Below are positions 114-29,083 of a stretch of 29,524 nt of DNA, one piece after another (position 1 is the stretch's first letter; the number at the start of each line of letters is the position of its first letter). The notes below the pieces were generated by a model. It did no database searches. It had not been told where the DNA came from and saw only the letters and a list, made by a program, of their open reading frames with translations. The position numbers and the translations under genes were made by a program. The stretch comes from Baffinella frigidus (Eukaryota; Cryptophyceae; Cryptomonadales; Baffinellaceae), in NCBI GenBank assembly GCA_026770585.1, contig MU646464.1, forward strand, positions 50,036-79,559, given 5' to 3'.

Positions 114-3100
114 CTGTTTCGGGTAGGGGGTTGGGGGTGTAGGGTGTAGGGTTAAGGGTTGAGGGTTTGGGGTTTGGGGTTTGTGTTTGGGGGAGTTTGG
201 GGTACGGGGTGAAGGGGTTGGGGTTTGGAGTGAAGGGTTTGGGGTTTAGGGTTTAGGGTTTAAGGTTTGGGGGTTGGGGGTTGGGATTTGGGGTTTGGGG
301 TTTGGGGTTTGCGGTTTCGGGTCTAGGGTTGAGGGTATATATAATTGGGGTGTGGGGTTTGGTTTTGGGGGAGTTTGGGCTACGGGGTGAAGGGTTTGGG
401 GTTTAGGGTGAAGGGTTTAGGGGTTAGGGTGAAGGGTTTAGGGGTTAGGGTGAAGGGTTTAGGGGTTAGGGGTTAGGGTTTGGGGGTTAGGGTTTAGGGT
501 TTAGGGTTTAGGGTTGAAGGTTTGGGGTTTGGGGTTTGGGGTTTGCGGTTTCGGGTCTAAGGTTTAGGGTATATATAATTGGGGTTTGGGGTTTGGGGTT
601 TGGGGATGGGGGTTGGGAGTTTGGGTTTGGGGCTTGGGGTTTGGGATTTGAGGTTTTGGGTTTGGCTTTTGGGGCTTGAGGTTTGGGGGTAGGGGTCTAG
701 AGTTTAGGGTCTAGGGTGTAGGGTATAGTATGTGGGGTTTGGGGTGTAGGGTTTGGGGTTTAGGGTTTAGGTCTTGGGGGTCGGGGTTTAGGGCTTAGGG
801 TTTAGGGTTTGGAGTTTAGGGTTTAGAGCTCAGGCTTCGGGTTTGGGTTTGAAGTTTTGGGTTTAGGATTTAGGGTTTAGGGGTTTGGGTTTTGGGTTTT
901 GGGTTTTGAGTTTCGGGTTTTTGGTATAGGGTTTGGGGTGTGGGGTGTAGTGTGTAGGGTGTGTGGTGTATGGTGTATGGTGTAGGGTGTAGGGTGTAGG
1001 GTGCAGGGTGCAGGGTGTAGGGTGCAGGGTTGGACCGTTTCGTCATCGGGGTCGAGGGCCAGAGCGTCAGTGCACACTTGCAACGCTTCCGCGTGGTTCC
1101 CCATCTTGCCCAGCACTATCGATTGCTTCGTCTGCAGGGTGCAGGGTGGGGGATCAGGGTTCAGGACACACCCTGCATCTGGACACCTTGCTCAGCGTTC
1201 ATCTGTTCCACACACCGTTATTAGGGTTGAGAGTGTAGGGTTTAGGGTTTAGGGATTAGGGATTAGGGTTGAGGGTTTGGGGTCTGGGGTTTAGGGTTTG
1301 AGGGTTAGGGAGTTGGGTAAGGGTTTGGGGTTTAAGATCCACGGCCGCCATGTATCCCCGCCCACGGATCGTGCGTATCTGGTGAAGGTTTAGGGTTCAG
1401 GGTTCAGGGTTTAGGGTTTAGGGTTTAGGGTTTGGGGTTGAGGGTGTGGGGTTTGGGGTTCAGGGTTCAGGGCTCAGGGTCCAGGGTTTGAGCAACCCTA
1501 AATCCTAGGGTTGAGGGTTGGGGGTTGAGGGTTTAGGGTTTAGAGTGTAGGGAGTAGGGAGTAGGGTGTAGGGTGTAGGGTGTGGGGTTCAGGGTTCAGG
1601 GTTTAGGGTTCAGGTTTTAGTGTTTAGTTACGCCTTGCTCAAAGCCTGCGCGCGGTTTGTCTCTCAAAGGTCACTTAATTTACCCCCCCCTCTAGCTGAC
1701 CAGCTGCTGACCGGTACCGGTTTAGCCGCTACCAAGGCGTTTTTTCCTAGCGGGGTCGTTCGCTCACCGCCGCCCCCCTCTTCCGAAGAGAACGATATAG
1801 ATCGTTCGGGTCTGGCTTAACCCTAAACCCTAAACCCTAAACCCTAAACCCTAAAGCGGCGGCTGTGCATCAGGGGGGCGTCGAATTCCGGCGACGTTTG
1901 GTACAAATGAAGGGGCTCATTTGTACCATACCCTAAACACATGATACGGGAAGGCTCTTCGCACCACATGCAACAGCATCCGCAGCAGCAGCCGCACCCC
2001 CAGCAAGCACGTTTAGGGTGCAGGGGGCTAAACCCTAAACCCTCAAGCGGCGGCTGTGCATCAGGGCGTCGAAATCCGGCGACTTCAGGTACAAATGGAG
2101 GGGCCAGCGACGCCTGGTTCAAATTCATCTCGAACGATAACTGAATCCGTTCCCTAATTAGCGTGTTAATTTAAGTAGGAGGCCTAATTAAATTTACTAT
2201 GCCCTAACTTACTTCTCCTATTCAACCTCCTGTTAAAAAGGAACTGATTCAGTTATCTTCCGAGATGGAAACGGAGGGATGTGCACCAGGAACGTTAGCT
2301 TGTGCGCTCGCGTCGCTGTCTGCTGCTCCTCCGGGAGGGCCGGTCAATTTGGGACGTGGGCTGGTCCTACGGTCATCCTAATAGATGATTGGATATGACG
2401 GATATCGTAACTAAGTCTTGGTTGATATCCACCCAAGAATCCCTTCGTAGCCAGCTGTGCGGCCGTAGCTCAGGGGGCGGCCAAACCGTCTTATTCGGGG
2501 CACGTGGCTTGTACCACACAGCGGGTTACGAAGGGATTTCCGGGCGCTGAGAGACCCGGTTTCCGTTACCTTGTCCGTAGGAACCCCCCTATGTCCCTAC
2601 GGCTTGCCTACTGTAGGGTCCTAGGTTTTATCGCTTAGGGGCTATTCAAAATCCCTTCGCAGTCCGCTGTGTGGCCAGGTGAGCCGAAATCCAGCTCAGT
2701 CCAGCCACCGGTTCACTGAACCGGGCAGCACAGTTTCGTACCCCGCACAAAACTGTGTTTTGATGGTCGCGTGATTGTGCTGAAACACAATGCACTGCGA
2801 CATATCTAGCTGGAGCACATCGAAGCTCAAGCCAGTCGGATTCCGAGCGGGCGCAATTACGGATCCTAGCTCTGTCTCAGTCTATTCGGGCTCTCCAATT
2901 TGGTGAGCCCGGGCTCGTTTTCGCGCCAAAGTTGACGGTTTTGCACCGCAAACCCAGAACGTCAACTTGAGAATAGTCGGTCAACATGAGCGAGGCAGAA
3001 CCTCAACCTGAGAATAGTCGGTCGACCCGAGTGAGGCAGAGGCAGGCCGTGCACCAGCCCAAATACAGCCGACATACTCAGCGACATATCTAGGGGGTGT

Positions 3101-3252
3101 ACCAGGCACTGCAGCCTGAGCGCGCGCGTCGCTTTGTGCTGCTCCTCTGGGAGGGGCGGCTTGAGCATATCCGTGAGGCGGATCGCCTTGGAGTAGGCCT
3201 CCGCGGCCGCGGCGTAGGAGAGGTTCTGGAACGCGGCGCTGCCTTTCTCCGC
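77..3252 (-). CDS. TPR-domain co-chaperone-like protein, partial, split gene
   Basis: Span of a minus-strand gene with three exons whose phases agree: 3103-3252 (50 codons), 1036-1131 (32 codons) and 77-113 (12 codons plus one base). The first carries EKGSAAF, then AAAEAYSKAIRL; the second GNHAEALQVCTDALALDP; the third VLFRRA. In this order these are the landmarks of the clustered TPR domain of FKBP51/52, TTC4 and SGT-type co-chaperones (KxGN.xF, Y..A...Y.kAI, L..y..A...C..AL.LDP, kaLyRRa), which normally bind C-terminal peptides of Hsp90 or Hsp70. Introns are filled with G-rich heptamers and contain a shadow of the first exon at 2281-2341. The gene is incomplete at its 3' side, cut by the window edge, and the true 5' end is uncertain. 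The TPR assignment is firm; the exact family is inferred. Confidence 0.75.
117..1030. repeat. Degenerate telomere-like heptamer field (TTTAGGG, TTTGGGG, TGTAGGG)
   Basis: Almost every base belongs to a heptamer of the form GGG+TTTA, TTTG, TTGA, TTAG, TGTA or TGCA on the plus strand. It forms the intron between TPR exons 77-113 and 1036-1131. Two copies of a longer block (around 290-340 and 530-580) share the non-heptamer text GGGTATATATAATTGGG, so blocks were duplicated as well as heptamers. I see no exon inside. Confidence 0.9.
1036..1131 (-). CDS. TPR gene, exon with CTDALALDP motif
   Basis: Minus-strand acceptor CCCTGCAG at 1132-1139 and donor GTCCAA after base 1036 bound 32 codons in phase 0, including GKMGNHAEALQVCTDALALD, a textbook TPR helix pair. 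Beyond 1036 the frame runs only into heptamer translation (CTLHPTP), which marks the intron. The donor is weak (GTCCAA), so the exact 3' boundary is less certain than the acceptor. Confidence 0.75.
1210..1618. repeat. Heptamer field, TPR intron
   Basis: G-rich heptamers (TTTAGGG, TTGAGGG, TTCAGGG, TGTAGGG) interrupted only by the possible exon fragment at 1335-1378. A short C-rich patch (CAACCCTAAATCC) near 1493-1506 is in inverse orientation. Confidence 0.85.
1335..1378 (-). pseudogene. Possible TPR exon fragment inside heptamers
   Basis: A non-repetitive island. On the minus strand it begins after a CAG and can be read as IRTIRGRGYMAAVDLKP, resembling a TPR helix B (Y..A..DLK..). It lies in the wrong order relative to the exon at 77-113 and its phase does not match that exon's end, so it is more likely a displaced exon fragment than a used exon. 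Weak evidence. Confidence 0.25.
1619..1818. other. Unique spacer, nothing recognised
   Basis: About 200 bp of mixed sequence between heptamer blocks, within the region between TPR exons 1036-1131 and 3103-3252. No convincing exon, hairpin or promoter was seen. Confidence 0.4.
1819..1855. repeat. CCCTAAA x5 (inverted orientation telomere-type array)
   Basis: Five perfect CCCTAAA units, i.e. TTTAGGG on the minus strand, opposite in orientation to the arrays on its left. The switch lies across the 200-bp spacer at 1619-1818. Confidence 0.9.
1855..2107. repeat. Two-copy module starting GCGGCGGCTGTGCATCAGG
   Basis: The segments 1855-1920 and 2043-2107 are near-identical (GCGGCGGCTGTGCATCAGG, then GTCGAA.TCCGGCGAC and GGTACAAATG.AGGGGC), spaced 188 bp. 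Each copy starts directly after a CCCTAAA or CCCTCAA run. Between them is a CAGCAG-rich stretch (1970-2005). They may be shadows of an exon outside the window; no coding frame was recognised. Confidence 0.7.
2135..2257. mobile_element. MITE-like inverted-repeat element, TIR GATAACTGAATC
   Basis: Terminal inverted repeats GATAACTGAATC and GATTCAGTTATC bound an AT-rich 123-bp segment without coding capacity. It is a non-autonomous DNA transposon by structure; the superfamily is not evident. Confidence 0.6.
2281..2341 (-). pseudogene. Shadow (3' fragment) of TPR exon 3103-3252
   Basis: On the minus strand these 61 nt align without gaps to the last third of exon 3103-3252: ALPEEQQTATRAHKLTFLVH against PLPEEQHKATRALRLQCLVH, in the same frame, including the GTGCAC/GTACAC donor region. 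It lies downstream of the intact exon in the direction of transcription and keeps the exon's 3' end, as the polarity rule predicts. Confidence 0.7.
2342..2864. repeat. Spacer with inverted and direct copies of an AATCCCTTCG motif
   Basis: AATCCCTTCGTAGCCAGCTG (2438) and AATCCCTTCGCAGTCCGCTG (2650) are direct copies; CAGCGGGTTACGAAGGGATT (about 2519-2538) is an inverted copy, and another inverted copy lies at 17757-17776. Near 2600 the text CCTACTGTAGGGTCCTAGG matches the interior of the family B and C hairpins. No gene seen. Confidence 0.6.
2865..2985 (+). repeat. Dispersed repeat family A, copy 1
   Basis: Begins CTAGCTCTGTCTCAGTC, contains a central palindrome around CCAATTTGG / GGTGAGCCCGGGCTC, then CAAAGTTGAC and GTCAACTTGAGAATAGTC. 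Other copies: 6429-6548 (-), 6669-6784 (+), 14837-14975 (+), 23328-23447 (-). A second tail copy (CCTGAGAATAGTCGGTC) follows at 3006-3022. Confidence 0.8.
3103..3252 (-). CDS. TPR gene, exon with EKGSAAF motif
   Basis: Acceptor CACCAG precedes GCGGAGAAAGGC on the minus strand and the donor GTACAC follows TGCCTG. The 150 nt are 50 codons in phase 0. The protein segment contains AEKGSAAFQN, AAAEAYSKAIRLTD, then a charged linker PPLPEEQHKATRALRLQC, matching the first TPR and the linker helix of FKBP-type TPR domains. This is the best conserved exon of the gene. Confidence 0.75.
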
Positions 3253-3487: not shown

Positions 3488-3594
3488 CTGCGTAGGGTTT
3501 AGGGTTTAGGGTTTGCACGAGGACCGCGGTTTTGAGAGACCGACCTCGGGAGTTGCGGTACCCCCTGCGCCTCGATTATGACCACCCGCCACCA

Positions 3595-5779: not shown

Positions 5780-5926
5780 ATGAAGATAACAGTGAAGCTG
5801 AATGGCGAGACCGCCAAGGTCGGACCGCCAGAGTGGGGGTCGGGACCTGACTACTTTTCCTTCTGGTCGCACTTCCTGGGGGCCCTGTTCGCTGTTTTTG
5901 CTACGATTCAGCTGCTTTCGATCCAG
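5780..5926 (+). CDS. PAQR gene exon 1 (TM1)
   Basis: Starts at ATG in GAGGATGAAG, 49 codons, ends at ATCCAG before the strong donor GTCAGC. Includes the hallmark WSHFLGA followed by a hydrophobic helix. An ATG further upstream is possible but no other in-frame family-like sequence was seen. Confidence 0.85.
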
Positions 5927-8900
5927 GTCAGCAAGACCCTCTCTTCCGGATCCAAGGATCGATTTTTCCGACGGAGTTTGTTGCCCCTAGCAGCCCCGTG
6001 GCCGCCCACCAGCGGGCATTGCGAAGCCTGCCTGCCTGCCCCGTGTGCCCCGCACAACGAAGAGGGATCCTTGCAAGCCGAGGCAAATTCGCTTCACGAG
6101 CCTAGCACACCACACGGGGACCCGGACCCTGCGGAAAGGACCGTTCTGATCGCCCTTCGACGCGGCAGGGCGCAAGCGTGGAGAAGCAGGTGGCGTGTCT
6201 GATCTACGGGGCGTGTGCTGTGATGATGCTCTCCTGCTCGGCTTTGCATCACGCCGTGCAGAAGCCCGTCTCGCTGCCAATCCAGCTCTTGCTCAGGCGA
6301 GTCACGCCGCTCCAGTTCCCGCACCCCCCCCCTCCAGCACGAAGCAGTCAGGGTGCGGCGTCAGCGTGAGCGCCTTGGGCCCTCGCGTCTCTCCCTGCAC
6401 TGAGCTTTCTAGCTCTGCCTCACGCGGGTTGACCGACTATTCTCAACTTGACATGCAGGGTTTTGCGGAACACATTCGTCAACTTTGGAGCGGGAAAGAG
6501 CCTGGGCTCACTAAATTGGTGAGCCCAACTAGCCTGAGCCAGAGCTAGGTGCGTGCTGCGGTGTCCTTGATCTCCCGCGGCTCTCAACTCCGACGTAGTG
6601 CTGCGAATTATTTGCACGAGAAATGACGTGTTTTGCGGCTTTCCACGCCGTTACGTGCATTGCAGATCTCTAGCGCTCTCCGTCTGTTTGGTCTCGCCAC
6701 TTTCATGAGACCAGGCTCGTCCCCCCTCCAAAGTTGACTGATTTGTACCACACACCCAGCATGTCAACTTGAGCATAGTCAGCCAAGCGGACTGATTAAT
6801 GCCTTTTTTCCAACCAAAATTAGTACATAATTTGAGCATGCTATTAATAGTAAAGCATCTCCGCTGCCGAGTGAGGACGGGACACAATTTTCAAGGGTTG
6901 AAAAAACTTTCACTGAATCCTGAAGGAAATGGACTTGTAAAATAAAAAAGCTGAGCCCGGATTTCCGGTCTCCGCTTTTATTCTTGTGCTTAGTTGGCTC
7001 GACAGCGGTGCAGTAAATTTCGTTGGTATGAAAGGCATTGATTAATACAATCTCTGAGATAATGGTGCAAGCAGGCGTCCACGTGTCGATATACGTATTC
7101 AAAATTACCACACCAATGCTGTACTATTACTAGTTTGATCCGATCGTGTAGTAAGTTTCGTTGGCAGACACGCATCGATTAACACTGTTGCTGATATTAT
7201 CGCCGGCGTTCAATAAATACCTTCTCTGAGATCAATCAATCTTTGAGACAATGTTGCGCGAACAGGCGGTATGAACGAGGAAGATATGCAGAAACTACGC
7301 AAGCTTATGTGGGATGTCTAGTTACTACGACCAAATGGATGGTGAGTTCACACGTCCCGACGGTCCGTCACCAGTAGCATGTCACGCTCGTAGCTAGCGT
7401 AGGCCCGCTCGACACGGTGGGACCACGTATCGATCTACGTGTTCATTGCTGGGTCGTGCACCCCGATCGTGGTCGGGGCAAACCTCGGAGCATTCACAAG
7501 CCAACGAAAATTACTACACAAATGCGTTACTATCACTAGTACAATCCAACTGTGTGGTAAATTTCGTTGGCAGAACGGCATTAATCAATTGATTAATTAA
7601 TCATTTCTCTGAGATAATGGTGCGCGAACAGGCGGTGGGACCACGTCTCGATCTACGTGTTCATTGCTGGGTCATACACGCCGATCATGGTCGGGTCGAA
7701 CCTCGGACTTTACACTAGCCGCACCATCCTCACCGCCGTGTGGGTCCTCGCCGTGGTAAATCTAACCCCAAACCCCTAACCCCTAGCCCCTAACCCCTAA
7801 ACCCTAAACCCCAAATCCTAAACCCTACATCCTCGCCGCGGTGTGGGTTCTTGCTGTGGTAAGCCTGCTTCTCACCCCTAACCCCTAACCCCTAACCCCT
7901 AACCCCTAACCCCTAACCCCTAACCCCTAACCCCTAACACCTAGCCCATAGCGCTACCTCAGTCAATCCGGGCTCCTCATTAGATACATTTCGATGCTCT
8001 TTGTAGAGCGTTTGTACGAAGTCCTGTTCGTAATCTAGTTGATTTTATCTCAGAAAACGAGTTCTAAAACTCGTTTTCTGAGATAAGATTAGGAGCCCAG
8101 AGAAACTGAGGCAGAGCTAGAACCGGATATGTATGCGTTGGGTCAAACCTCGGACTTTACACTAGCCGAGCCATCTTCACTGCCGTGTGGGGTTTCACAC
8201 CCTAAGCCATACCCCGTCTAAACCCTCAACCGCACCCTTCAACCTTACACCATAAATCATCACTCCTAAACCCTAAACCCTAAACCCTTCAACCTTCAAC
8301 CTTCAACCATAAACCGGTGTGGGTTCGTGCTGTGGTAAGCCTGCTTCTCTGCCCTAACCCCTAACCCCTAACCCCTTACCCCTAACCCCTAACCCCTCAA
8401 CCCTAGACCCTAGACCCTAGACCCTAGACCCTAGACCCTAAAACCTAAAACCTAAACCCTAAACCCTAACCCCTAAACCCTAATCCTAAACCCTAACCCC
8501 TAGACCCTAAACCCTCACCCCTCACCCCTCACCCCTAACCCCTAACCCCTTCATCCTAAACCCTAACCGCTAAACCCTAACCCCTAACCCCTAACCCCTA
8601 ACCCTTAAGCCCAAACCCCCAACCCCTAACCCCTAACCCCTAAACCCCAAACCCTAAACCCCAAACCCTGAACCCTGCTTCCTCCCCATCGTGTGGGGCC
8701 TCGCCGTGGTAAGCATTCGGCTCAACTTTAGTACAGGGATACCTCGAATGTGAAAACACGCTCCCCCCATCCACTTGGCAGCCACCGTTGCCGCCCCCCC
8801 CCGGATTTCCGGGGGAGATTTCCTGACTTTTGGCGTGTTTCCTGGGTGAGAATCAACTTTGGAGCGATTCCCGAAGGCCTCGGTGCCTGCTAAGTGGATA

Positions 8901-11900
8901 TGTGTCTGAGAAAACCTCGGAGTGTGGACCAGCCGGACCGTCCTAGCGTTCGTGTGGGGTCTCGCCGTGGTGAGTTAATAGTGACGTACGGGTCTAATTT
9001 CAGACCATGTTACTGTGAAAGTCTGTATTTAAACCCTAAACCCACCCCCCCTAATCCGCTATCCCCTAAACCCTAAACCCTAAACCCTAAACCCTACACC
9101 CTACACCCTAAACCCTAAACCCTAAACCCTCAACCCTAAACCCTAACCCCCAGACCCTAAACCCTAAACCCAAACCCCTAAACTCCTGAACCCCTAAACC
9201 CCTCGCCCCGGCTCTGACGACTGTTTTCAACCCCTACACCCTAACCCTCGGCAGATCGGGGGGTGCCAGAAGTTGTTTTTCAACTTCTCCACAATGTGCT
9301 ACGTGACCATCTCGACATACATCTGTCAAGGCTGGGCCTGCATCAAAATATCGGTTAACAACATGTCTTTGTACCACGCAATTATTAACTCGTACCACGA
9401 AAATACGTGGACGGATCTCCTAAACAGCCAAACCCCACTCGCCGGCAGATCGGGGTGTGCCAGAAGTTGTTTTTCAACTTCTCGACAATGCGCTACGTGA
9501 CCATCTCGACATACATCTGTCAAGGCTGGGCCTGCATCAAAATATCGGTTAACAACATGTCTTTGTACCACGCAATTATTAACTCGTACCGCGAAAATAC
9601 GTGGACGGATCTCCTAAACAGCCAAACCCCACTCGCCGGCAGATCGGGGTGTGCCAGAAGTTGTTTTTCAACTTCTCCACAATGCGCTACGTGACCATCT
9701 CGACATACATCTGTCAAGGCTGGGCCTGCATTTTCGCCCTCCCTCAGTTGGTAACACCTACCCACCCCCCCCCCCACGCCCCCAAGTTATGTATACGAAT
9801 CGGAAGTTTAGGAGGATCTGGAATTGGAGGGATTGGGCCGTTTCCTGGTTAAGGGTTTAGGTTTAGGGTTTTATCTCGACATACATCTGGCAATGCTGGG
9901 CCTGAATTTTCGCCCTCCCTCAGTTGGTGATCCCTGACCCCCCCCCTCACCCCCCTCTAAGCCCTGAACCCTAAAACATGAACCCTAAACCCTGTACACT
10001 AGACACTCAACACTCAACACTCAACACTCAACACTCAACACTCAACACTCAACACTCAACCCTAGACACTAAACCTGAAACCCTAAACCCGAAACCCGAA
10101 ACCCGAAACCCGAAACCCGAAACCCGAACCCCTAAACTCTGAACCCTAAACCCTGAACCCTGAACCCTAAACAATAAACCCTAAACCCCAAACCCTAAAC
10201 CCCAAGCCCTAAACCCTAAACCTCAAACACTAAACAACCAGCCATAAACTACAATTCCTCAACCCTCAACCCTGACCCTCCTTCTCCTTCCCTTTCTCTC
10301 GGCAGCGTGCAACGTTCGGAGACGATTTGCACCTGCTAGCAGCCGGGGGGCTCTTCTACGCCCTACACCCTAACCCCTAACCCCTTACCCCTCACCCCTC
10401 GCCCCTAGCCCCTAACCCCTATCCCCGAACCCCTTAACCCTAAACCTTCTTCTTCCTAAAACCCTAAACCCCAAACCCTAAACCCTAAACCCTAAACCCT
10501 AAACCCTAAACCCCAAACCTTCTCCCCACACCCCTAGACCCCAAACCCTAAAAAAACCAAACCCCCAACAGCGTGCAACGTTCGGAGACGATTTGCAGCT
10601 GCTAGTAGCCGGGGGGCTCTTCTACAGCGTGGGCGCCTTCGTGTACGCGAGCAAGCGACCCAACCTCTGGCCCAACACGGTGCGTCCTAGGTTAGGGTTT
10701 GGTGTGTAGGGTTCGGTGTTGAGGGTTGAGGGTGAGGGTTGAGGGTTAAGGTTTTGGAGTTTAGGGTTGAGGATTTAGGGTGTAGGGTGCAGGTGGTTTT
10801 CAGAGCAAGCGACCCAACCTCTGGCCCAACACGGTCCGTCTTGGCGTGGGGTGTGGGGTGTAGGGACGCACCGTATTCGGACGCGCCGTACTCGGCCAGA
10901 GACGTGAGCTCTCGTAGGGCGTAGGGTGTAGGGTGTAGGGTGTAGGGTGTAGGGTGCAGGGTGCAGGGTGCAGGGTGTAGGGTGTAGGGTGCAGGGTGTT
11001 GGGTGCAGGGTGTTGGGTGTAGGGTGCGCGCACAGCGCTGGTGCATTTTCCCCCACGGAGGCTAGGCTCTCTAGTGTAGTGGCGAGGGGGCTCTTCTACA
11101 GCGTGGGAGCCTTTGTGTACGCGAGCAAGCGCTCCAACCTCTGGCCAAACCTAACCTAAGACGCACCGTGTTTTAGGTTAGGGTTTACCCTAACCTAAGA
11201 CGCACCGTGTTACACCACGGTGCGTCTTAGGTTAGGGTTTTTTTACACAACACGGTGCGTCTTAGGTTAGGGTTTGGTGTGAAGGGTTCGATGTTGAGGG
11301 TTGGGGGTTGAGGGTTGAGGTTTTGGAGTTTAGGGTTGAGGATTTAGGGTGTAGGGTGCAGGTGGTTTCCAGAGCAAGCGGCCCAACCTCTGGCCGAACA
11401 CGGTGATGTTAGGGTGTAGGGCGTAGGGTGTAGGGTGTAGGGTGTAGGGTGTAGGGTGTAGGTGCAGGGTGTAGGGTGTAGGGTGTAGGGTGCAGGGTGT
11501 TGGGTGTAGGGTGCAGGGTGTTGGGTGTAGGGTGCAGGGTGTAGGTGGTTTCCAGAGCAAGCGACCTATGGGAGAACACGGTCCGTCCCTCGCTCTCTAC
11601 AACCTCTCTTGATCCCGACACGGCCGCCATTTCCCCCCACAGAGGCTAGGTTCTCTTGCGGTTGGACCTTGGAACCATTATCCGTGTGGTCTTGAAACAC
11701 GCTACTCTTGACGGGTTTGGGGGCTTGACCGTCAAGCTGGGCTGTACCCTGAAACAAGCCAGAGCGCGCACTGCCCCAGAGCTCGCGTGAGATAGGCCCG
11801 CTTTGGGAAGATAGGCCCGCCTCGGGACAGCCAGGCCCGCCTCGGGATAGATCGGCGCGCCTCGGGATATATCCCTTAAGTGGCCAGTAGGCTCATACGC

Positions 11901-12509: not shown

Positions 12510-12580
12510 GTGCTTTTGGGGCATTTTGCCACTACCGCTGCGTCCTTCTTCACATTATGGGGAATAACGTTGTAGGGTAG
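12510..12580 (+). pseudogene. 3' shadow of PAQR exon 6
   Basis: GTGCTTTTGGGGCATTTTGC and CACATTATGGGGAATAACGT align with the second half of exon 6, with a 1-nt deletion that shifts the frame. It lies downstream of the intact exon and keeps its 3' end, including the stop region. Confidence 0.85.
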
Positions 12581-12602
12581 GACGGGCCCGCCTTAGGGGG
12601 AC

Positions 12603-12724: not shown

Positions 12725-12778
12725 GCGTGGGAGTGAGATAGGCCCGCCTCGGGAGCTATTGGAGCTCTTGGACGGGGA

Positions 12779-12898: not shown

Positions 12899-12913
12899 GA
12901 GTGATATATTGAG

Positions 12914-12954: not shown

Positions 12955-13025
12955 GAGTGATATATTGAGGTATTTCGGGAAGAGACCGGATGTGGTCAAA
13001 GGGGGGCGTGGTTGTGGCTCTTCAG

Positions 13026-17020: not shown

Positions 17021-17096
17021 GGGACGGGGGCTACTCTCAGTTGTAAATGAGGGACCTTCTGCCCCTGACGTCTAGGCTCGCTCGCATACCCCTTAA
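17021..17096. other. Short spacer after WD40
   Basis: No feature beyond possible 3' UTR. Confidence 0.3.
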
Positions 17097-17190
17097 GTGA
17101 CCAGTAGGCTCATACGCCCTACCGTAGGGCCCTAGGACCTGCCTAGGGCTTCCACGGGCGATTATTCGCCCGTTGGTCACTTAAGGGATA
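17097..17190. mobile_element. Family C MITE, copy 4
   Basis: TACCCCTTAAGTGACCAGTA ... TGGTCACTTAAGGGATA with centre GGGCGATTATTCGCCC. The GACC/GGTC change on the two arms is compensatory. Confidence 0.85.
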
Positions 17191-17463
17191 TAGTGGCTCG
17201 ACCGGATCCGCTCCGCCGCGCAGGACATTGCGGTGGTACTTCTCGTTTTAACACATCTGTACATGGGTGTCTCGGAAACGGGAATCCCCACGCGGAATAC
17301 AGTTACAGAGAGAGATTGATAATTTATTGCCAAACAACCAGCGTCAGCGCCGCACATGCTACGCATTGTGCCACTTACTGTACCCCGTGTCGGCCGCTCA
17401 TACGAGCATTTTCCGGATGGATTCTAACTCCACCTCCTACGATACAGTTACACATGTAGGCGG
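17191..17463. other. Spacer, no gene recognised
   Basis: Unique AT/GC-mixed sequence with no family-like frames. Confidence 0.4.
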
Positions 17464-17585
17464 TACAGGGGTGCCTCGCTCATAAGAAACGCCCCCCCCC
17501 CCTAGGACCACCATAGGGCCCTAGGCATGGTCCTACTGTAGGGTCCTAGGGGGGGGCTGTTTCTTATGAGCGAGGTACCCCTGTA
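17464..17585. mobile_element. Family B MITE, copy 9
   Basis: Full-length palindrome with TACAGGGGTGCCTCGCTCAT and GAGCGAGGTACCCCTGTA ends. Confidence 0.85.
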
Positions 17586-17632
17586 TCGCGCACCGCCCGT
17601 CGGGAGTCGCTTTAGAAGAGAACAAGTACATG

Positions 17633-17741
17633 TACAGGGGTACCTCGCTCATAAGAAACCAACTCCCCCTAGGACCCTACAGTGGGGCCCTATGGTGGTC
17701 CTAGGGGGGTGGTTGTTTCTTATGAGCGAGGTACCCCTGTA
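17633..17741. mobile_element. Family B MITE, copy 10 (internally shortened)
   Basis: Both ends are intact; about 13 bp shorter in the interior than the other copies. Confidence 0.85.
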
Positions 17742-18310
17742 GAAGCCAAGCCACTCACAGCGGGCTACGAAGGGATTTTCGGCCCACATCGGTCCATCTT
17801 TCCGTGAGAAACGGCAAAAAATCGCCCGACTCCCAGCCCGTGGCCACTTTCCCAAATGGTCAACTTTACTCCCGAGCCTCGGTTAATCACCCAACACAGC
17901 ACCCCTTCGCCCGCGCACTCCCCAGGTTATGAGCCACGCAACCGAAACCCTCGCGCCGTCTCACACGCCCGAAACCCCCGAAATCGCCGCCTCCAGCTAT
18001 TGGAGCTATTGGAGCTATTGGCGCCATCACTCCCCTCCCCAACCCCCACGAAACACAACCCCACGCCCCCTCACACATGCGCCCCCTCTCTCACACACAC
18101 ACCCTCAGGAGGGTCTGCCTGGGTCCTAACACTCCCCTGGTAGACCGCCCTCCATCCCTATCACGCCTCTTACCGCTGGCCTATTCGGCTGGCCCAAACC
18201 TTGCCAGTGCAGGCCAGGCGTCCTGTCCTAGGATAGGAGCCACACACCGAAGGCGCCCTACGCCACCTTGTGGCAGACACCTCCTCTCCCCCCCCCAGTG
18301 CACCTAGGGC
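17742..18310. other. Spacer, no gene recognised
   Basis: Contains the GCGGGCTACGAAGGGATTTT motif shared with 2519-2541, a TATTGGAGCTATTGGAGC triplet repeat near 17998-18020, and Pro/Thr-coding CCC-rich text. No convincing gene. Confidence 0.4.
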
Positions 18311-18413
18311 CATCCCTCAAGTGGCGAGGCGGTATTGACCGCGAAGAGGGTCCTAGGCAGGTCCTAGGGTCCCTACGGTAGGGCGTATGGGCCTACTGGC
18401 CACTTGAGGGATA
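18311..18413. mobile_element. Family C MITE, copy 5
   Basis: CATCCCTCAAGTGGCGAGGC ... TACTGGCCACTTGAGGGATA. Arms carry matching TCAAG/CTTGA changes. Confidence 0.85.
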
Positions 18414-18542: not shown

Positions 18543-18664
18543 GTTTAGGGTGTGGGGTTTAGGGTTTAGGGTTCAGGGTTCAGGGTTTAGGGTTTAGGGT
18601 TTAGGGTTTAGGGTTTAGGGTTTGGGGTTTAGGGGGCAAAGGGTTTAGTTTGAGGTTTAGGGTT
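18543..18664. repeat. TTTAGGG array
   Basis: Nearly perfect TTTAGGG units on the plus strand, interrupted by a few variants. Family B copy 11 abuts the end. Confidence 0.9.
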
Positions 18665-18726
18665 TACAGGGGTACCTCGCTCATAAGAAACCGCCCCCCC
18701 CCTACGACCACCATAGGGCCCCAGGT
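18665..18726. mobile_element. Family B MITE, copy 11 (left half only)
   Basis: TACAGGGGTACCTCGCTCAT to GGGCCCCAGGTAG; the right half is missing. Confidence 0.8.
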
Positions 18727-18809: not shown

Positions 18810-18918
18810 CGGGTTAAGTTCCTTCATTAGGTCCTCGCCCACAGCCAGCACCCCTGTCTTTGCTAGTTGTCGGACCGACGCCTCGTAGCCCTCCTCACTC
18901 CCGTCCGCCAAATCGAAC
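18810..18918 (-). CDS. Exon X, unrecognised protein
   Basis: Minus-strand acceptor CAACCCAG, 109 nt, donor GTTCGC. In the open frame it reads FDLADGSEEGYEASVRQLAK then TGVLAVGEDLMKELNP, with normal amino-acid composition. I do not recognise the family. Support for being an exon: splice-like borders, heptamers on one side, and two truncated copies upstream that keep the acceptor side. Neighbouring exons of the same gene are not identified; exon Y on the same strand 1.2 kb upstream could belong to it. Confidence 0.5.
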
Positions 18919-18997: not shown

Positions 18998-19518
18998 GAG
19001 TGTCTTTGCTAGTTGGCGGAAGTCTCGTAGCCCTCCTCACTCCCGTCCGCCAAATCGAACCTGGGAGAGGGGAACGGCAGGTTTAATACGTTGACAAACA
19101 CGACCGCTGCACGCCACGTGGAAAGGTAGGTACGAGATGGGGACACCCCGTCGGCTCACACGGGATGTGTACCTACCGGGAATCTCATCCCGCCAGGTAT
19201 TTGATTTAAATGCTTTGGAGTTCCCCGAATCAACGAAATTTACTACATAATTGGCCAAATCAGTCTTGTCCAGGCCTGGACGTGACCAATTGTGTGGTAA
19301 ATTTCATGTATTCGGGGAACTCCAAAGCATTTAAATCAAATACCTGGCGGGATTAAATCCTTGGTAAATGGCAAAGGTTGACGGGTTAGTACCAGAACCG
19401 TCCCAACCTCAACAGTTTTTATATGGAAGATACATGAGGTTTGAAACCAGTTTTGGAAGAGTGTCTTTGCTAGTTGTCCGGATCGATGTCTCGTAGCCCT
19501 CCTCACTCGCGTCCGCGG
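18998..19518 (-). pseudogene. 5' shadows of exon X (two fragments)
   Basis: 18998-19062 and 19459-19518 match the first half of exon X (GGCTACGAG, CTAGCAAAGACA). The first includes the acceptor CAG; in both, CTAGCAAAGACACTCTTCC diverges from exon X after AAGACA. Both lie upstream of exon X on the minus strand. Confidence 0.7.
19187..19353. mobile_element. Foldback element with perfect 44-bp arms
   Basis: Arms 19187-19230 and 19310-19353 (ATCCCGCCAGGTATTTGATT ... ) are exact reverse complements. The interior holds a family G motif pair (AAATTTACTACATAATTGG / CCAATTGTGTGGTAAATTT). It lies between the two exon X shadows. Confidence 0.85.
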
Positions 19519-19655: not shown

Positions 19656-19669
19656 ACAGAGAGCAGGGG

Positions 19670-20092
19670 GAGGACAGCACATACGCATCTGCCACGTAAG
19701 ATGTAGGGTTCATGGTTTTAGGGTTCAAGAGCTCCTTGCACAGACAAATTTGCGAAGCAGGATCCAGGGTTTAGGGTCAGGGGTTTGGGGGTTACTTGCA
19801 CAGACAAATTTGCCACGTAGGGTCTTGCCCCGAGGTCAAGTCTTAGGGGGTTACTTGCACAGACGCATGTTCCACGCAGAGTCTAGGATCTAGGGTTCAG
19901 GGTTCAGTGGTTTGTTACTTGCACAGACGCATTCTCCACAGAGGGTCTGGGGTTTAGACTTCAGGGAGAGTAACAGAGAAGCAGAAGACGAAGAAGAAGA
20001 AGACGAAGAAGAAGTTGGAGGGTTCGGGGATTTGAAGCGTTCAGGGGGTTACTTGCACAGACGCATTTGCCACGTGGGATCAAGGGTTCAAT
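19670..20092 (-). pseudogene. 3' shadows of exon Y (six fragments)
   Basis: Fragments near 19670-19712, 19727-19775, 19793-19848, 19851-19892, 19914-19952 and 20048-20092 contain GGTTACTTGCACAGACGCAT (or close variants). On the minus strand that is the end of exon Y plus its GTAACC donor, each followed by heptamers. All lie downstream of exon Y in the direction of transcription. The longest (19793) extends to the CTTGCCCCGAGGTCAAGTCTT part. Confidence 0.85.
19960..20040. repeat. GAAGAAGAAGACGAAG trinucleotide-like tract
   Basis: Short GAA/GAC repeat between exon Y shadows. Confidence 0.7.
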
Positions 20093-20118: not shown

Positions 20119-20193
20119 TTGCACAGACGCATTTGCCACGTAGGGTCTTGCCCCGGGGTCAGGTCTTTGAAGATCTTTGGCTCCCACCCGGTC
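20119..20193 (-). CDS. Exon Y, unrecognised protein
   Basis: Minus-strand acceptor GTATCAG, 75 nt, donor GTAACC. Reads (R)TGWEPKIFKDLTPGQDPTW then QMRLC in the open frame. No family recognised. Coding status is supported by composition, splice borders and the six downstream truncated copies that share the donor. Confidence 0.5.
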
Positions 20194-21201: not shown

Positions 21202-21525
21202 TGCCTGCACTAGCATATCCACCCTTATCTTAAGCGTTGGAAGCCTGAAGACACACACCAGATTCTGTTTTGTTCAGAAATGAGAGTGAAATACCACCGG
21301 TCCCACGCTGCGTGACAAGCAGCCGCTGCTTTTCACAACATGTGAGCCTCGGCCATACAGGTAGCGAGCCTCGGCCATGGGCCAGGTCGCGAGCCTCTAG
21401 TTGACCGAGGCTCACAGAACAGCTGTTCTGGACGTGTGTCTTTGGTGTGGGGCAGAACAGCTATCCTGGACATGTTTGTGATTGGCCCAACGCGCCCCAG
21501 GGTTCAACGCAGGTTGAGCTCGAGG
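21202..21525. other. Spacer with GAGCCTCGGCCAT repeats
   Basis: GAGCCTCGGCCAT occurs twice, plus a related GAGCCTCTAG and an inverted GACCGAGGCTCAC (21345-21416), then two ACAGCT.T.CTGGAC copies. No gene recognised. Confidence 0.45.
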
Positions 21526-21981
21526 TTTAGGGTGTAGGGTGTAGGGTGTAGGGTGTAGGGTGTAGGGTGTAGGGTGTAGGGTGTGGGGTGTGGGATGTGG
21601 GGTGTAGGGTTTAGGGTGGTTGCAGGGTGTAGGGTTTAGGGTGTAAGGTGTGGGGTGTGGGGTGTGGGGTGTAGGGTGTAGAGTGTAGGGCGCAGGGTGC
21701 AGGGTGCAGGGTGCAGGGTGCAGGGTGTAGGGGTGTAGGGTGCCGGGTGAAGGGTGAAGGGTGCAGGGTGTAGGGTGTAGGGTGCAGGGTGTAGGGTGCA
21801 GGGTGTAGGGTGCCGGGTGTAGGGTGAAGGGTGCAGGGTGTAGGGTGTAGGGTGCAGGGTGTAGGGTGCAGGGTGTAGGGTGCCGGGTGTAGGGTGAAGG
21901 GTGTAGGGTGTAGGGTGTAGGGTGCAGGGTGTAGGGTGCAGGGTGTAGGGTGCAGGGTGTAGGGTGTAGGGTGTAGGGTGT
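21526..21981. repeat. TGTAGGG/TGCAGGG satellite with 70-bp higher-order unit
   Basis: About 65 heptamers. The variant TGCCGGG recurs at about 21742, 21812 and 21882, giving a 70-bp (ten-heptamer) higher-order repeat in the right half; the left part is plain TGTAGGG. Long Cys/Thr/Leu/His/Pro open frames on the minus strand are translations of this repeat, not genes. Confidence 0.95.
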
Positions 21982-24779: not shown

Positions 24780-25111
24780 TGGCATTAGGGGGCCGGTGCC
24801 GTGTCCTCGGGATAGTTCGTCGTCAAATAGGACACTCGGAAAGATCCGTCCTGAATGTCTTTTATGGCGAAAAATCGAAATTTCGGAAAGTTGGTACAAA
24901 TTCCGTGTGAACTGACTTGTTTTCCTAGGTCAGCCCTACTCTCTTGCGTGGTAAATGTCTTTTATGGCGAGCCCAGTTGTACACCAGCCAGGGTGCCGTG
25001 GGCTGGCTGGACAAGGACACGCCCAGGTCGCAGAAACCCGGGTCTTGCCTGTCTTATTTTACCGCTAAACTCGGACAAGAAAAAGTAGATTAACGCGAAG
25101 AAAAAAATCAC
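24780..25111. other. Region 3' of the known OSBP exons; possible further exon not identified
   Basis: ATGTCTTTTATGGCGA occurs twice (24857, 24955). A fragment near 25024-25045 (AACCCGGGTCTTGCCTGTCT) copies the middle of OSBP exon c. The segment 24966-25023 is protein-like in more than one frame, but I could not tie it to the OSBP family. Confidence 0.4.
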
Positions 25112-25226
25112 CTCAGCGTCGACGGTCGGGGGCTGGAAGGAGGACGCCTTCTCGGCCTCAACGTCGAAGAACACCCGGGTCTTGCCTGTCTTTTTCTCCG
25201 TGATGTTGATGCACTTGTCCCACCGC
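25112..25226 (-). CDS. ORP gene exon c
   Basis: Acceptor CTCGCAG, one base completing the Gly codon, 38 codons, donor GTGATT. Encodes RWDKCINITEKKTGKTRVFF then DVEAEKASSFQPPTVDAE; the LDG-RWD junction with exon b is the conserved 'l.G.WD' of ORPs. Confidence 0.8.
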
Positions 25227-28200
25227 CTGCGAGAGTGCGGTTTGGGGTTTGGAGAGTGCGGTTTGGGGTTTAGATTGGAGTCTGGCAGCGAACATAACTA
25301 CACACTTGGGTCGTAATAGTATTTGTAAAGCCTTTGCGCAGCAATTTTCGGTTTTAGAATTTGCCCATCTTGCCACGCCAGGCCACACGTCAGAATTTCA
25401 GAAAACCATCCATCTTAAAGATTTCCTGAGGGGTTTGGTTTGGGGTTTAGAGTCTGGCAACGAACATTACTCTACACAATTGGGTCAGTTGTGAATCTGG
25501 CTACGAAAATTACTTCACAATTGGGCCATTTTCGAATCTGGCAACGAAAATTACTAAACAATCGGGTCGTACTGGTATTAGTAAGCATTTGGGGAGCAAT
25601 TTTCGGTTATAGAATCTGCCCGTCTTTTTCTCCGTGATGGTGATGCGCTTGTCCCACCGCCTGCGGGTTTGGTGTTTGGTGTTTGGGGTTTGGGGTTTGG
25701 GGTTTGGGGTTTGGGGTTTGGGGTTTGGGGTGTGTGGTTTGGTGTTTGGGCTTTGGGCTTTGGTGTTTGGTGTTTGGTGTTTGGTGTTTGGTGTTTGATG
25801 TTTGGGGTGTGTGGTTTGGTGTTTGGTGTTTCATCTTTGGTGTTTGGTGTTTGGAGCTTGGGGTTTGGGCTTAGGGTTTAGGGTGTAGGGTTTAGGGTTC
25901 AGGGTTCAGGGTTCAGGGTGTCGGGTTCAGGGTTGAATCGTGCAGTTTTTATGGTGCCGGATTTACGGTTTGGGTTTTGGGCTTCGGGGTTTGGGGTTTA
26001 GGGGTGTAGGGTGTACCCGTCGAGCTTGTACATGGTCTCTCCGGTCGCCGTCTTCTGAATCTTGCCCTCCACTGAGCAGCCCTAAACCCCAACCCCTAAC
26101 CCTCTACCAGGCTAACCTCTACCAGGGGACGACCTCAACCCTGCACTCCATACGAGAGAGAGCGAGCGAGCGAGAGAGAGAGAGGGGGCCTCCTTGCAAG
26201 GGGGGGCTGGGTGCGTCACCCCCCATAGGCGACCTCAACCTTGAACTCCAAAAATTTATGGGGAAATGATCACGTTTCCGTACGGATGTCCGTACGGAAA
26301 CGTGATCAAATGCTGACTTTTGGCGTGTTTCCTGGGCAATAATCCAATAAATAACTGGTCGTGCACGACCACCATGCAACGGTACCCTAGCTCGGTGACG
26401 GATGCAGGGCTTGGGGTTTGGTGTTTGGTGTTTGGTGTTTGGTGTTGGTGTTTGGTGTTTGGTGTTTGGTGTTTGGTGTTTGGTGTTTGGTGTTTGTTTG
26501 GGGTTTGGGGTATGGGGTTTGGGGTTTAGGGTTTGGTGTTTAGGGTGAAGGCGGTACCGCCTAGCGGGGTTTGGGGTTTAGGGGTGTAGGTTGTACCCGT
26601 CGAGCTTGTACACGGTCTCCCCGGTCGCCGTCTTCTGAATCTTGCCCTCCACTGAGTTGTTCGTCCCCTGATTGTTGAGGATTAGGGTTTAGGGTTTGGA
26701 GCTCAGAGCTCAGGGCTCAGGACGTGGTGCGTAGGGCTAAAGGTTTATCTTGCCCTCCACTGAGTTGTTGGTGCACTGATTGAGGGTTAGGGTGTAGGGC
26801 TCAGGGCTCACGGCGTAGGGCTTGAGGTTTATCCTGGTTGTTGAGGGTTAGGGTTTAGGGTTTGGGGTTTAGGGTTTGGGGCTCAGGGATCAGGGCGTAG
26901 GGATTAAGGTTTATCTTGGCCTCCACTCAGTTGTTCGTCCCCCGGAAGAGGGTTAGGGTTTAGGGCTCGGGACTCAAGGTTTAGGGCTGATGCTGGTTTC
27001 TCAAGGTTGAGGGCTGATGCCGTCTTCTGAATCTTGCCCTCCACTGAGTTGTTCGTCCCCTGGCTGTTGAGGGTTCGAGTTTAGGGCTCAGATGGTTGAG
27101 AGCAGGTGGTTAAGGATTTTAAGGTTTAGGGCTCCACTTGGTAGTTCGTTCTCTGGTGGTTCAGGGTTCAGGGTTCAGGGTTGAGGGTTGAGGGTTGAGG
27201 GTTGAGGGCGCAGGGTTTAGAGCTTAGGGTTCATTGCATGGTATGTAGTTGAGGGTTAGGGTTTAGGTCTTGGTTTAGCGCCTAGGGTTTATTGATTGGT
27301 TGAGGGTTGAGGGTTGAGGGTTGAGGATTGAGGGTTGAGGGTTGAGGGTTGAGGTTTGAGAGTTGAGGGTGTAGGGTTTAGGGTGTAGGATTTTGGGTCT
27401 ATTGCAGCAGCGTCCACGCAGGTCCCTAGGGCAGAGTTCTCTCCTAACCACACACCCCAAACCCCAAACCCCAAACACCAGGCAACGGCTCCAACTCCCC
27501 AGGAAAATGGAGTTTAAAAAAATGCTGAGGCGGGTCCGCCACAAGGCTCTTATCCCTTAAGTGCCCAGCCGGAGGTCCTCGGCAGGTCCTAGGGCCCTAC
27601 CGTAGGGCGACGACCGCCACGAGGTCCTCGGCAGGTCCTAGGGCCCTACCGTAGGGCGTATGCGCCTACTGGGCACTCAAGGGATACTGATGGATCACTC
27701 AACTCAAGGATCGAGAGTAGTAAAGAAGGACGCATGTATGCTGTTGGTCCATCAGCCTTGGGCACGAGCGAGACGGGCAGTGCAACATGCAATGGTGTAA
27801 AACTGCGCTCGCCATAAATGACATTCAGAGCAGAAACCCCAGCACAAAGAGGCGACTGAAATACATTTTTTTGGCGAGCACACTTTTAGCCTGACAGAGC
27901 TAGGCTACCACACGAGGCTATCCATGCGAACAGAGTAAAAGGACATTTTTAAAATTTGTGGGGAAATGATCACGTTTCCGTACGGATATCCGTACGGAAA
28001 CGTGATCAAATGCTGACTTTTGGCGTGTTTCCTGGGCAATAATCCAATAATTAACTTATGAATCTGTTCGCATGGATAGCCTCGTGTGGGTAGGCATCGA
28101 CGCCCCCAAAATCAACATGCCTCAGCTCAAAAAAAAAGTGCGCACCCACCATCTACGCACGGCGAGCTACCACGCCAGAGGGCTCGAGGGAAACCGACGC

Positions 28201-28726
28201 CTTATCCACGCCAGATCTGGCGTCGTTGGACTTGACTTTTCAGGGGGTTTCCCCCGAAAGATGTCAAAAATGGATGATTCGAGCCCTCTGGCGTGGTACG
28301 AACGACCCGCTACACACAAGCACAGAGGAGCCGCTACAACGCATGGCGTTGAGCGGGTTGTGGCCAAGCCCAGTTTCACTCCGGCAGAGTTAGGAGCTCC
28401 CCCCAGGGTGGGCGGACACCAGCCTCAAATAAATCCCTATTTTAAAATACCCGCGTTCTCGCAAAAGGGAGACGCTGTTTTTTTTCGAACGGCTTAGCTT
28501 GAAATAGCCCTTGTTCTTGACGGACAACTAGAGCGAGAGTCCTTATCGTATTCTTGAAGGACAGCTTGCGCGAGAGTCCTTATCGTATTGCACACGGTCA
28601 ACGGGAGACGCTGGTACAAACGTGCTCACCTTGAAATAGCCCTTGTTCTTGAAGGACAGCTTGAGCGAGTAGCCGCTCACGGGGCACTCAATCGCCACGT
28701 CCCCCGCAATCTCCATCCGCATCACC
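25112..28726 (-). CDS. Oxysterol-binding-protein-related (ORP) gene, partial, three exons
   Basis: Minus-strand exons 28630-28726, 26597-26667 and 25112-25226 join in one frame (the last junction splits a Gly codon). They read MRMEIAGDVAIECPVSGYSL, KLSFKNKGYFK, VEGKIQKTATGETVYKLDG and RWDKCINITEKKTGKTRVFF. This is the order of the ORD domain core in OSBP/ORP proteins (G.v.i.c..tGY...l.Fk.k..., v.G.I......~.l.G.WD). ORPs exchange sterols or PI4P/PS between membranes at contact sites. The N-terminal part (including the EQVSHHPP signature) and the C-terminus are not seen; the window or unrecognised exons may hold them. Introns of about 1.4 and 1.9 kb are mostly heptamers and exon shadows. Confidence 0.8.
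25235..25275. repeat. GAGAGTGCGGTTTGGGGTTT duplicated
   Basis: Two direct copies right next to the acceptor of ORP exon c. Confidence 0.85.
25276..25618. repeat. Family G-like tandem elements
   Basis: TCTGGCAACGAAAATTACTA and variants repeat four times, with GGAGCAATTTTCGGTT.TAGAAT at about 25339 and 25593. The block 25276-25365 is thus duplicated at 25530-25618, next to the exon c shadow. Confidence 0.75.
25619..25660 (-). pseudogene. 5' shadow of ORP exon c
   Basis: 42 nt matching the start of exon c (GCGGTGGGACAAGCGCATCA, CCATCACGGAGAAAAAGACG) with its CGCAG acceptor. It lies upstream of the intact exon on the minus strand. Confidence 0.85.
25665..25935. repeat. TTTGGGG / TTTGGTG array
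   Basis: Runs of GGTTTGG and TGTTTGG heptamers, then TTTAGGG/TTCAGGG. Gly/Phe/Val/Trp-rich open frames here are repeat translations. Confidence 0.95.
26017..26076 (-). pseudogene. 3' shadow of ORP exon b
   Basis: Matches all but the first about 11 nt of exon b, in the same frame (VEGKIQKTATGETMYKLDG) with the GTACAC donor. It lies downstream of the intact exon. A CTCAG lies right before its TGGAGGG, so it could be a usable alternative exon, but its length would change the frame. Confidence 0.8.
26151..26190. repeat. (GA)n tract
   Basis: GAGAGAGAGCGAGCGAGCGA type repeat. Confidence 0.9.
26255..26352. mobile_element. Family E element, copy 1
   Basis: A 42-nt palindrome TGATCACGTTTCCGTACGGA... 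(26268-26309, one mismatch at the centre) followed by the fixed tail GCTGACTTTTGGCGTGTTTC and AATAATCCAATAA. Copy 2 is at 27951-28056; tail alone at 8822. Confidence 0.85.
26405..26560. repeat. TTTGGTG array
   Basis: About fifteen TGTTTGG units with one frameshifting TGTTGG, ending in TTTGGGG/TTTAGGG. Confidence 0.95.
26597..26667 (-). CDS. ORP gene exon b
   Basis: Acceptor CAATCAG, 71 nt, donor GTACAA. Encodes GTNNSVEGKIQKTATGETVY then KLD plus two bases of Gly. Phase-compatible with both neighbours (exon a ends in phase 0; exon c supplies the missing base). Confidence 0.8.
26680..27395. repeat. Heptamer fields, ORP intron
   Basis: GGGTTAG, GGGCTCA, TTGAGGG and TTTAGGG units around the exon b shadows; a clean TTGAGGG array at 27297-27370. 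Confidence 0.9.
26747..27156 (-). pseudogene. 5' shadows of ORP exon b (four fragments)
   Basis: 26747-26781, 26912-26943, 27018-27063 and a diverged 27131-27156 contain CTTGCCCTCCACTGAGTTGT and GTTCGTCCCCTG, i.e. the start of exon b with its acceptor side on the minus strand. All lie upstream of the intact exon, separated by G-rich heptamers. Confidence 0.85.
27396..27550. other. Intron spacer
   Basis: No exon recognised. A short CCCCAAA triplet (27444-27470) is heptamer-like in inverse orientation. Confidence 0.4.
27551..27686. mobile_element. Family C MITE, copy 6 (internally duplicated)
   Basis: TATCCCTTAAGTGCCCAG ... CTGGGCACTCAAGGGATA. The interior GAGGTCCTCGGCAGGTCCTA / GGGCCCTACCGTAGGGCG occurs twice, making this copy longer (136 bp). 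Confidence 0.85.
27687..27950. other. Intron spacer, nothing recognised
   Basis: Unique sequence without family-like frames or clear repeats. Confidence 0.4.
27951..28056. mobile_element. Family E element, copy 2
   Basis: Perfect 42-nt palindrome at 27968-28009 (core CCGTACGGATATCCGTACGG) plus the fixed tail GCTGACTTTTGGCGTGTTTC. Nearly identical to 26255-26352, so recently duplicated. Confidence 0.9.
28168..28298. mobile_element. Inverted-repeat element J
   Basis: 20-bp perfect TIRs TACCACGCCAGAGGGCTCGA / reverse complement bound 131 bp, with inner palindromes (ACGCCAGATCTGGCGT; a GGGGG..CCCCC hairpin). It sits inside a plus-strand open frame (28072-28497) that I regard as spurious. Confidence 0.8.
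28499..28574 (-). pseudogene. 3' shadows of ORP exon a (two fragments)
   Basis: TTGAAATAGCCCTTGTTCTT GACGGACAACTAGAGCGAG (28499-28537) and a shorter copy (28551-28574) match the end of exon a. The downstream intron text GGGAGACGCTG beside the intact donor is also copied at 28468. They lie downstream of the intact exon on the minus strand. Confidence 0.85.
28630..28726 (-). CDS. ORP gene exon a
   Basis: Acceptor CTGAGCAG, one base, then 32 codons and donor GTGAGC. Encodes VMRMEIAGDVAIECPVSGYS then LKLSFKNKGYFK, the ORP beta-strand pair 'G.v.i.cp.tGY...l.Fk.kg'. The single base at the start implies an upstream exon ending in two bases. Confidence 0.8.
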
Positions 28727-28734: not shown

Positions 28735-29083
28735 GGTTGAGGGTTGAGGGTTGAGGGTCGAGGGTTGAGGGTCGAGGGTTCAGGTTTAGAGTTGAGGGTT
28801 CAGGATTTGTCACGGGGCACTCAAATCGCCACATCCCCCGCAATCGCCATGCGCCTTACGCTGCTCGGGGTTTTGGGTTTAGGGTTGAGGGTTTAGGTTT
28901 AGTGTGTAGGGTTGAGGGGTTAGGGGTTAGGATTGGTCATGGGGCACTCAATCGCCACGTCCCCCGCAATCTCCATCCGCATCACCCTGCTCAGGGTTGA
29001 GGGTTGAGGGTTGAGGGTCGAGTGTTGAGGGTCGAGTGTCGAGTGTTGAGGGTTGAGGGTCGAGGGTCGAGGGTTGAGGATTT
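28735..29083. repeat. TTGAGGG / GTCGAGGG array
   Basis: Homogeneous TTGAGGG with GTCGAGGG variants, interrupted by the two exon a shadows; the blocks 28721-28775 and 28981-29030 are duplicates including the exon acceptor. Confidence 0.9.
28811..28986 (-). pseudogene. 5' shadows of ORP exon a (two fragments)
   Basis: 28811-28860 (diverged) and 28937-28986 (almost identical) match the first half of exon a with the GAGCAG acceptor. Both lie upstream of the intact exon on the minus strand. Confidence 0.9.

Follow-up and report, generated by a model that had tools for sequence, protein, structure and literature searches.

Exons in the nuclear DNA of Baffinella frigidus can be accompanied by truncated copies of themselves, and the order of these copies is consistent: pieces upstream of the intact exon, in the sense of transcription, carry its 5′ part, and pieces downstream carry its 3′ part. 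We analyzed a 29.5-kb stretch of contig MU646464.1 (hereafter the window; its contig is C162 in our listing, in a genome of 382 Mb and 1364 contigs), together with exons sampled from other contigs. At the exons tested the copies lie in direct orientation, follow this polarity and are never whole, and at one window exon and one outside exon they form head-to-tail units. The fragments are very probably scars of local tandem duplications that crossed an exon-intron boundary.

Fourteen exons were set in the window by reading frame and AG-GT borders, so that these borders come from the sequence itself; the exceptions are E2, which has a GC donor, E1, which starts with ATG, and E7, which closes with a stop codon. 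On the + strand, the joined exons at 5780-12435 encode a PAQR/HlyIII protein (PF03006, 2.3e-34). The − strand carries an oxysterol-binding protein (ORP) gene (PF01237, 2.5e-10) and a TPR gene (PF00515, 2.6e-8), in which the TPR_1 match for exon T2 was obtained with T2 joined to T3. A Pfam search with exons X and Y returned zero matches. Where five transcription units had been proposed earlier from the sequence, the PAQR, TPR and ORP genes are thus backed by Pfam matches and X/Y is without one. In a genome profile search with PF03006, two other places were listed, and the window's own short PAQR exons were not among them.

Searching the window with the 14 exons and 12-nt flanks, on both strands at E≤0.05, returned 33 partial copies of 24-101 nt at ten of the exons (E4, E5, E6, E7, T2, X, Y, Oa, Ob and Oc), with no fragments at E1, E2, T1 and T3. 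All 33 copies share the orientation of their exon; none is antisense and none is whole. Upstream there are 13 copies, 12 with the 5′ end and one internal, from the 5′ half; downstream there are 20, of which 16 have the 3′ end and four are internal. Their distance from the intact exon is about 60 to 1,200 bp. Most copies are 70-96% identical to it with differing flanks, a few reaching 97-99% (E5 twice, E6, Oc). An earlier note on this DNA had described about 35 truncated copies, 5′ parts upstream and 3′ parts downstream on both strands, with one ambiguous fragment at 25024-25045. Aligning the intact exons to the window in both orientations upholds this rule at the same ten exons, provided that our E4-E7 correspond to its PAQR exons 3-6, and the ambiguous fragment is overlapped by the one copy of the 33 that comes from the wrong half of its exon.

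In the PAQR gene, whose joined exons, E4 to E7 included, give the Pfam match, E4 (7632..7755) is preceded by a 5′ fragment at 7415..7502 (exon positions 2..89 of 124, 86% identity, AG lost) and followed by 3′ fragments that keep the GT at 7828..7862, 8680..8712 and 8913..8971 and by an internal fragment (59..113, 89% identity) at 8137..8191. E5 (9643..9750), also recovered in a genome search, has two upstream 5′ fragments with the AG kept, each within a 194-bp unit (9249..9343 and 9437..9537), and a downstream 3′ fragment with the GT kept (9873..9935). Upstream of E6 (10572..10679) lies a 5′ fragment with its AG (10303..10359), and downstream lie 3′ fragments with their GT at 10803..10840 and 11372..11405 and a piece spanning exon positions 32..105 of 108 at 11077..11150. 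The last exon, E7 (12334..12435), is followed by a 3′ fragment at 12510..12581 (82% identity).

On the − strand, T2 (3103..3252) has a downstream 3′ fragment, starting from exon position 94 with the GT kept, at 2281..2343 (81% identity). Exon X (18810..18918) has an upstream 5′ fragment with the AG kept (19001..19065) and a 5′-half fragment (11..64) at 19462..19516. Exon Y (20119..20193) is followed by 3′ fragments with the GT kept at 19787..19844, 19845..19901, 19914..19948 and 20041..20081, and by weak ones that have lost it at 19664..19698 and 19735..19787. The three ORP exons are supported by Pfam. Oa (25112..25226) has an upstream 5′ fragment with the AG kept (25617..25665) and a downstream internal fragment (25027..25058). 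Ob (26597..26667) has a downstream 3′ fragment with the GT kept (26005..26076) and upstream 5′ fragments at 26747..26782, 27019..27071 and, weakly (E=0.047), 27132..27164, all with the AG kept, and at 26913..26942 with the AG lost. Oc (28630..28726) is preceded by 5′ fragments with the AG kept at 28810..28872 and 28937..28998, and followed by a 3′ fragment with the GT lost (28488..28537) and by a piece covering positions 58..81 of 97 (28551..28574). These fragments are not independent: breakpoint and flank are common to those starting at 9249 and 9437, 28810 and 28937, and 10803 and 11372, and about 23 different breakpoints were counted by hand in the window. There would therefore have been fewer duplication events than copies, because units were re-amplified.

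But does the order hold beyond the window? We took 25 exons from other contigs, a sample and not an annotation-wide set, chosen by Pfam match regardless of copies: 10 TCP1 exons (PF00118) and 15 of 17 HSP70 matches (PF00012), two full-length matches on C709 being left out. About 0.5-5 kb of flanking DNA was viewed with them. In 5 of the first 20, whose borders likewise rest on sequence, the rule failed to place one border; the last five exons were taken at their Pfam limits, one of them trimmed by hand. The first 20, searched with 12-nt flanks at E≤0.05 on the exon strand, gave 15 fragments and the last five added 3. These 18 local fragments, at 8 of the 25 exons, were all concordant: the 10 upstream are all 5′, the 8 downstream all 3′, and none is whole. 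Antisense copies of these exons were absent at E≤1e-3. With the first 20 exons alone as queries at E≤1e-3, 13 fragments remained at 4 exons, upstream seven 5′ and one internal, downstream five 3′; the fragments at C94:454045 and on C6 were counted from the flanked search at E≤0.05 and are not listed by the exon-only search. C226:186252 is the best case outside the window: its four upstream fragments break off at positions 37, 45, 45 and 58 of the exon, and its three downstream ones set in at 45. Those matches obtained with 30-nt flanks that lay mainly in telomere-like flanking repeats, at 59-76% identity, were excluded from the counts (two rows at C94:461415, one at C94:460403, two at C62:294875, one at C62:291210 and six at C62:290679). 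A further 10-kb stretch (L011), inspected for open frames and repeats, gave no set of exons and stands outside all exon counts. With the window's own contig, the pattern is present on 8 contigs.

Pooling the 14 window and 25 outside exons and scoring matches within 2.5 kb by their midpoint gave 45 concordant, 1 discordant and 0 antisense fragments at E≤1e-3, so that all 46 are in direct orientation, against a mean of 0.2 matches in five sets of shuffled exons. At E≤0.05 the counts were 48 concordant and 2 discordant (shuffled, 1.4), and at E≤0.5 they were 53 concordant, 3 discordant and 3 antisense (shuffled, about 9.6). Overall, 18 of the 39 exons have fragments. Non-coding DNA behaves differently. 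Of 764 non-coding 100-bp segments in the window, 368 have local copies; same-strand copies upstream comprised 110 5′, 138 3′, 105 whole and 93 internal, and downstream 107 5′, 151 3′, 59 whole and 87 internal, making 164 whole copies among 850 on the same strand, next to 402 antisense copies. For 993 outside segments, 297 5′ versus 283 3′ copies lay upstream and 257 5′ versus 286 3′ downstream, with 173 of 1734 whole and 261 antisense. Polarity is thus absent from non-coding segments in the window and outside it. Tandem duplication predicts this, in that a random segment would be equally likely to span the new junction or an old edge. Comparing exons with these controls by Fisher's test gave 9e-8 (window) and 5e-4 (outside) for polarity, and in the window 0.003 for the lack of whole copies and 2e-5 for the lack of antisense copies, values that overstate the evidence because the control pseudo-exons (at most 15% telomere-like) overlap one another and were all scored as + strand across the window.

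How could such an order arise? A duplicated unit reaching from the upstream intron into the exon would give a left copy made of the acceptor and the 5′ part of the exon, and a right copy running into the complete exon. A unit that starts within the exon and reaches the downstream intron would leave the complete exon first, with a right copy made of the exon's 3′ part and the donor. Either way one uninterrupted exon would remain and the intron would be lengthened, and re-duplication of such units would multiply fragments on one side. Exons would show polarity because continued function after tandem duplication makes the ancestral uninterrupted copy the working exon. This explanation, with one breakpoint in the exon and the other in the intron, was put forward in the earlier note; it accounts for why the copies are close by, in one orientation and ordered by side, and the outside exons agree with it. 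The units of E5 stand head to tail with a period of 194 and 98% identity, and the array downstream of the C226 exon has a period of 183 and 1.8 copies. E5 is the one exon that was searched genome-wide, and the best candidates scored fall at 4 places, all within 0.7 kb; the searches with the other exons covered the window or the DNA around the outside exons.

The other half of the earlier proposal is that selection keeps one intact exon. Whole-exon duplicates would lead to an mRNA with two exons in place of one, and selection seems to remove them; the absence of whole copies hints at this, with significance limited to the window. In a simulation of tandem duplication with assumed unit lengths of 60-600 bp, purging whole-exon duplicates left 403 of 407 end-bearing partial copies concordant and 28 of 454 copies near-whole; without purging, 357 of 403 were still concordant, so polarity arises either way, and 324 of 741 copies were whole. 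The duplication events themselves, the purge and the resulting growth of the introns would together make up the history that the fragments suggest.

Several observations weigh against this account. In the window, the Oa fragment at 25027-25058 (exon 32-64 of 115) is the sole discordant one by midpoint (1/33), and an exon-only search adds a weak second at Ob (7-39 of 71, E=0.016). Relaxing the threshold to E≤0.5 brings in a discordant match on C467 and the three antisense matches. Four of the excluded rows would also have been discordant (C94:461415 twice, C94:460403 and one at C62:294875); all are absent with an exon-only query. No fragment lies within reach at 4 of the 14 window exons and 17 of the 25 outside exons, and outside the window the lack of whole (0.63) and antisense (0.40) copies is not significant. 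Many fragments, moreover, stand apart from the intact unit, with gaps of 73 to 965 bp (among them E7, X, Oa, T2 and C1133), so one has to reckon with later insertions or a different route. A homology-extension run, largely overwhelmed at T3 and C62 by telomere-like repeats, served for gaps and distances only; at E4, E6 and C94, gaps close to zero pass through telomere-like flanks and were left out.

A rival explanation is repair by insertion: an exon is broken once and an intact sister or homologue copy is pasted in, so that both fragments are halves of one former exon. Through repeated breaks and restorations, introns would then be built largely from their own former exon borders, and the fragments would be a dated record of intragenic break repair. 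The meeting points at C226:186252 suit this idea, as do near-matching ends and starts at E4 (89 / 94) and Oc (50 / 58). However, across the 8 exons with both kinds of fragment, ends and starts do not lie significantly closer together than expected by chance (P=0.09, with breakpoints entered by hand), those of E5 (89 / 55) overlap by 34 nt, and E7, T2, X and Y carry fragments on one side. We consider such an origin improbable.

Still less probable is a telomerase-type repair, in which exon breaks are healed with TTTAGGG-like repeats and the duplicated ends come to surround an inserted array. The idea has a precedent in some mammalian interstitial telomeric repeats, which are described as insertions with flanking duplication (PMC2246262), and 15 of 33 broken ends are followed by 40 nt of which a tenth or more scores as telomere-like. 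Yet mean telomere-like cover there is 0.22 versus 0.19 at random non-coding points of the gene spans (P=0.28), the junctions upstream of E5 score zero, and no telomere-like repeats were seen by eye at the C226 junctions. Telomere-like repeats make up 12-17% of the window by two definitions and stand at many junctions, no more than elsewhere in the gene spans. As the broken ends are not enriched in them, we rejected this mechanism. With no such enrichment and no significant closeness of breakpoints, small, re-amplified tandem duplications are favored, and breaking and pasting is kept as a minority reading.

Duplication of whole exons followed by decay from either end is highly improbable: whole duplicates are common among non-coding segments of the window, but decay would scatter 5′ and 3′ pieces on both sides, where we find a split of 45 to 1 and no whole copy, and the simulation without purging yields 44% whole copies. 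An assembly artefact of misjoined repeats or haplotypes, which the few near-identical copies might suggest, is equally hard to credit given the divergence of most copies, their unlike flanks and their spread over eight contigs. As to insertion of introners or transposons with a long duplication of the target, no dispersed insert was seen between the head-to-tail copies of E5, and the C226 introns contain sequences that, by eye, resemble the window's dispersed repeats.

If tandem duplication across exon borders produced the fragments, what became of the splice sites they carried along? Of 20 upstream 5′ fragments, 17 still have the AG where it should stand, and of 23 downstream 3′ fragments, 19 still have the GT; one of these downstream fragments derives from a last exon that needs no donor. 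Together, 36 of 43 end-bearing fragments retain their site, in a tally made without C1204 and C190. By our estimate this is close to what drift alone would leave at ~90% identity, and we therefore see no sign that leftover sites are weeded out. The retained AG and GT dinucleotides are candidate splice sites.

Duplications of this kind have precedents. In a potato gene, a duplication that crosses an intron-exon boundary is reported as a means of gaining an intron (PMC4974935): the duplicated stretch runs over the border of intron 1 and exon 2, and the upstream copy, as here, holds the acceptor side and a piece of exon, but that case is one event that yielded a new intron through a cryptic donor, whereas here many exons are affected, on both sides and often repeatedly, and the apparent effect is a lengthening of the intron. 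In Drosophila, coding sequence bearing a proto-splice site is reported to have been duplicated in tandem (PMC2891723), which shares with our case a regional duplication of coding sequence of which one copy turns intronic; its subject is new intron positions, and its abstract does not speak of ordered leftover pieces. The partial intragenic duplication in sole dmrt1 (PMC7605655) likewise takes in part of an exon, but as described it is a single event of more than 10 kb that includes two other exons and is put down to a SINE. Direct repeats near intron borders (PMC11782384) resemble ours in lying at or near splice borders, but the report gives them as 4-30 bp and reads them as insertion footprints, in contrast to the 24-101 nt and ordered polarity found here. 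In a limited search of the open-access literature, no paper came up that describes ordered exon fragments as a usual feature of introns. Our best reading is that boundary-crossing tandem duplication is a known type of mutation, described singly for intron gain, that here recurs at 18 of 39 exons.

The window contains other repeats and one further gene. Long seven-base telomere-like arrays in either orientation occupy 1-1640, 7764-10280, 10690-11540, 21520-21980 and 25660-27400, with a variant that differs between arrays (TTTAGGG, TGTAGGG, TGCAGGG, TTTGGGG), and such a repeat seems to form the end of some introns, as with ...CACCCTGCAG ahead of the exon at 1036-1131. A family with palindromic ends TACAGGGGTACCTCGCTCATAAGAAACCG, whose copies are ~65-95% alike and match in either orientation, resembles a small inverted-repeat transposon; copies lie at 12603-12725, 12777-12899, 13025-13147, 13210-13334, 13387-13510, 14072-14190, 14425-14547, 17463-17586, 17632-17742 and 18664-18725. 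Copies of a second dispersed repeat, with abundant CCTAGGACC / CCGTAGGGC palindromes, lie in both orientations (11870-11957, 12054-12140, 14558-14649, 17086-17153, 18335-18413, 27612-27686). The ORP gene region holds a 106-bp pair (26251-26356 and 27951-28056), 97% identical and each with an inner palindrome. On C226 (L036, ~3540-3570), the intron after an HSP70 exon opens with CACAGCGGGCTACGAAGGGAT, which by eye recurs near window position 17755 and, inverted, near 2650; the end of a dispersed element may lie directly at this donor. An apparently intronless open frame with an SUI1 domain (PF01253, 2.2e-11) lies at 15014-16009 on the − strand.

The origin of intron DNA and the cause of intron growth are usually hard to read, and the exons here act as labeled probes: each fragment reveals which side was duplicated, where the break fell and, through its divergence, roughly how old it is. 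The fragments also provide natural splicing decoys, with matched real and leftover acceptors and donors within one transcript. If the pattern is genome-wide, one genome could provide counts of how often small tandem duplications arise, how whole-exon duplicates are purged and what leftover splice sites cost.

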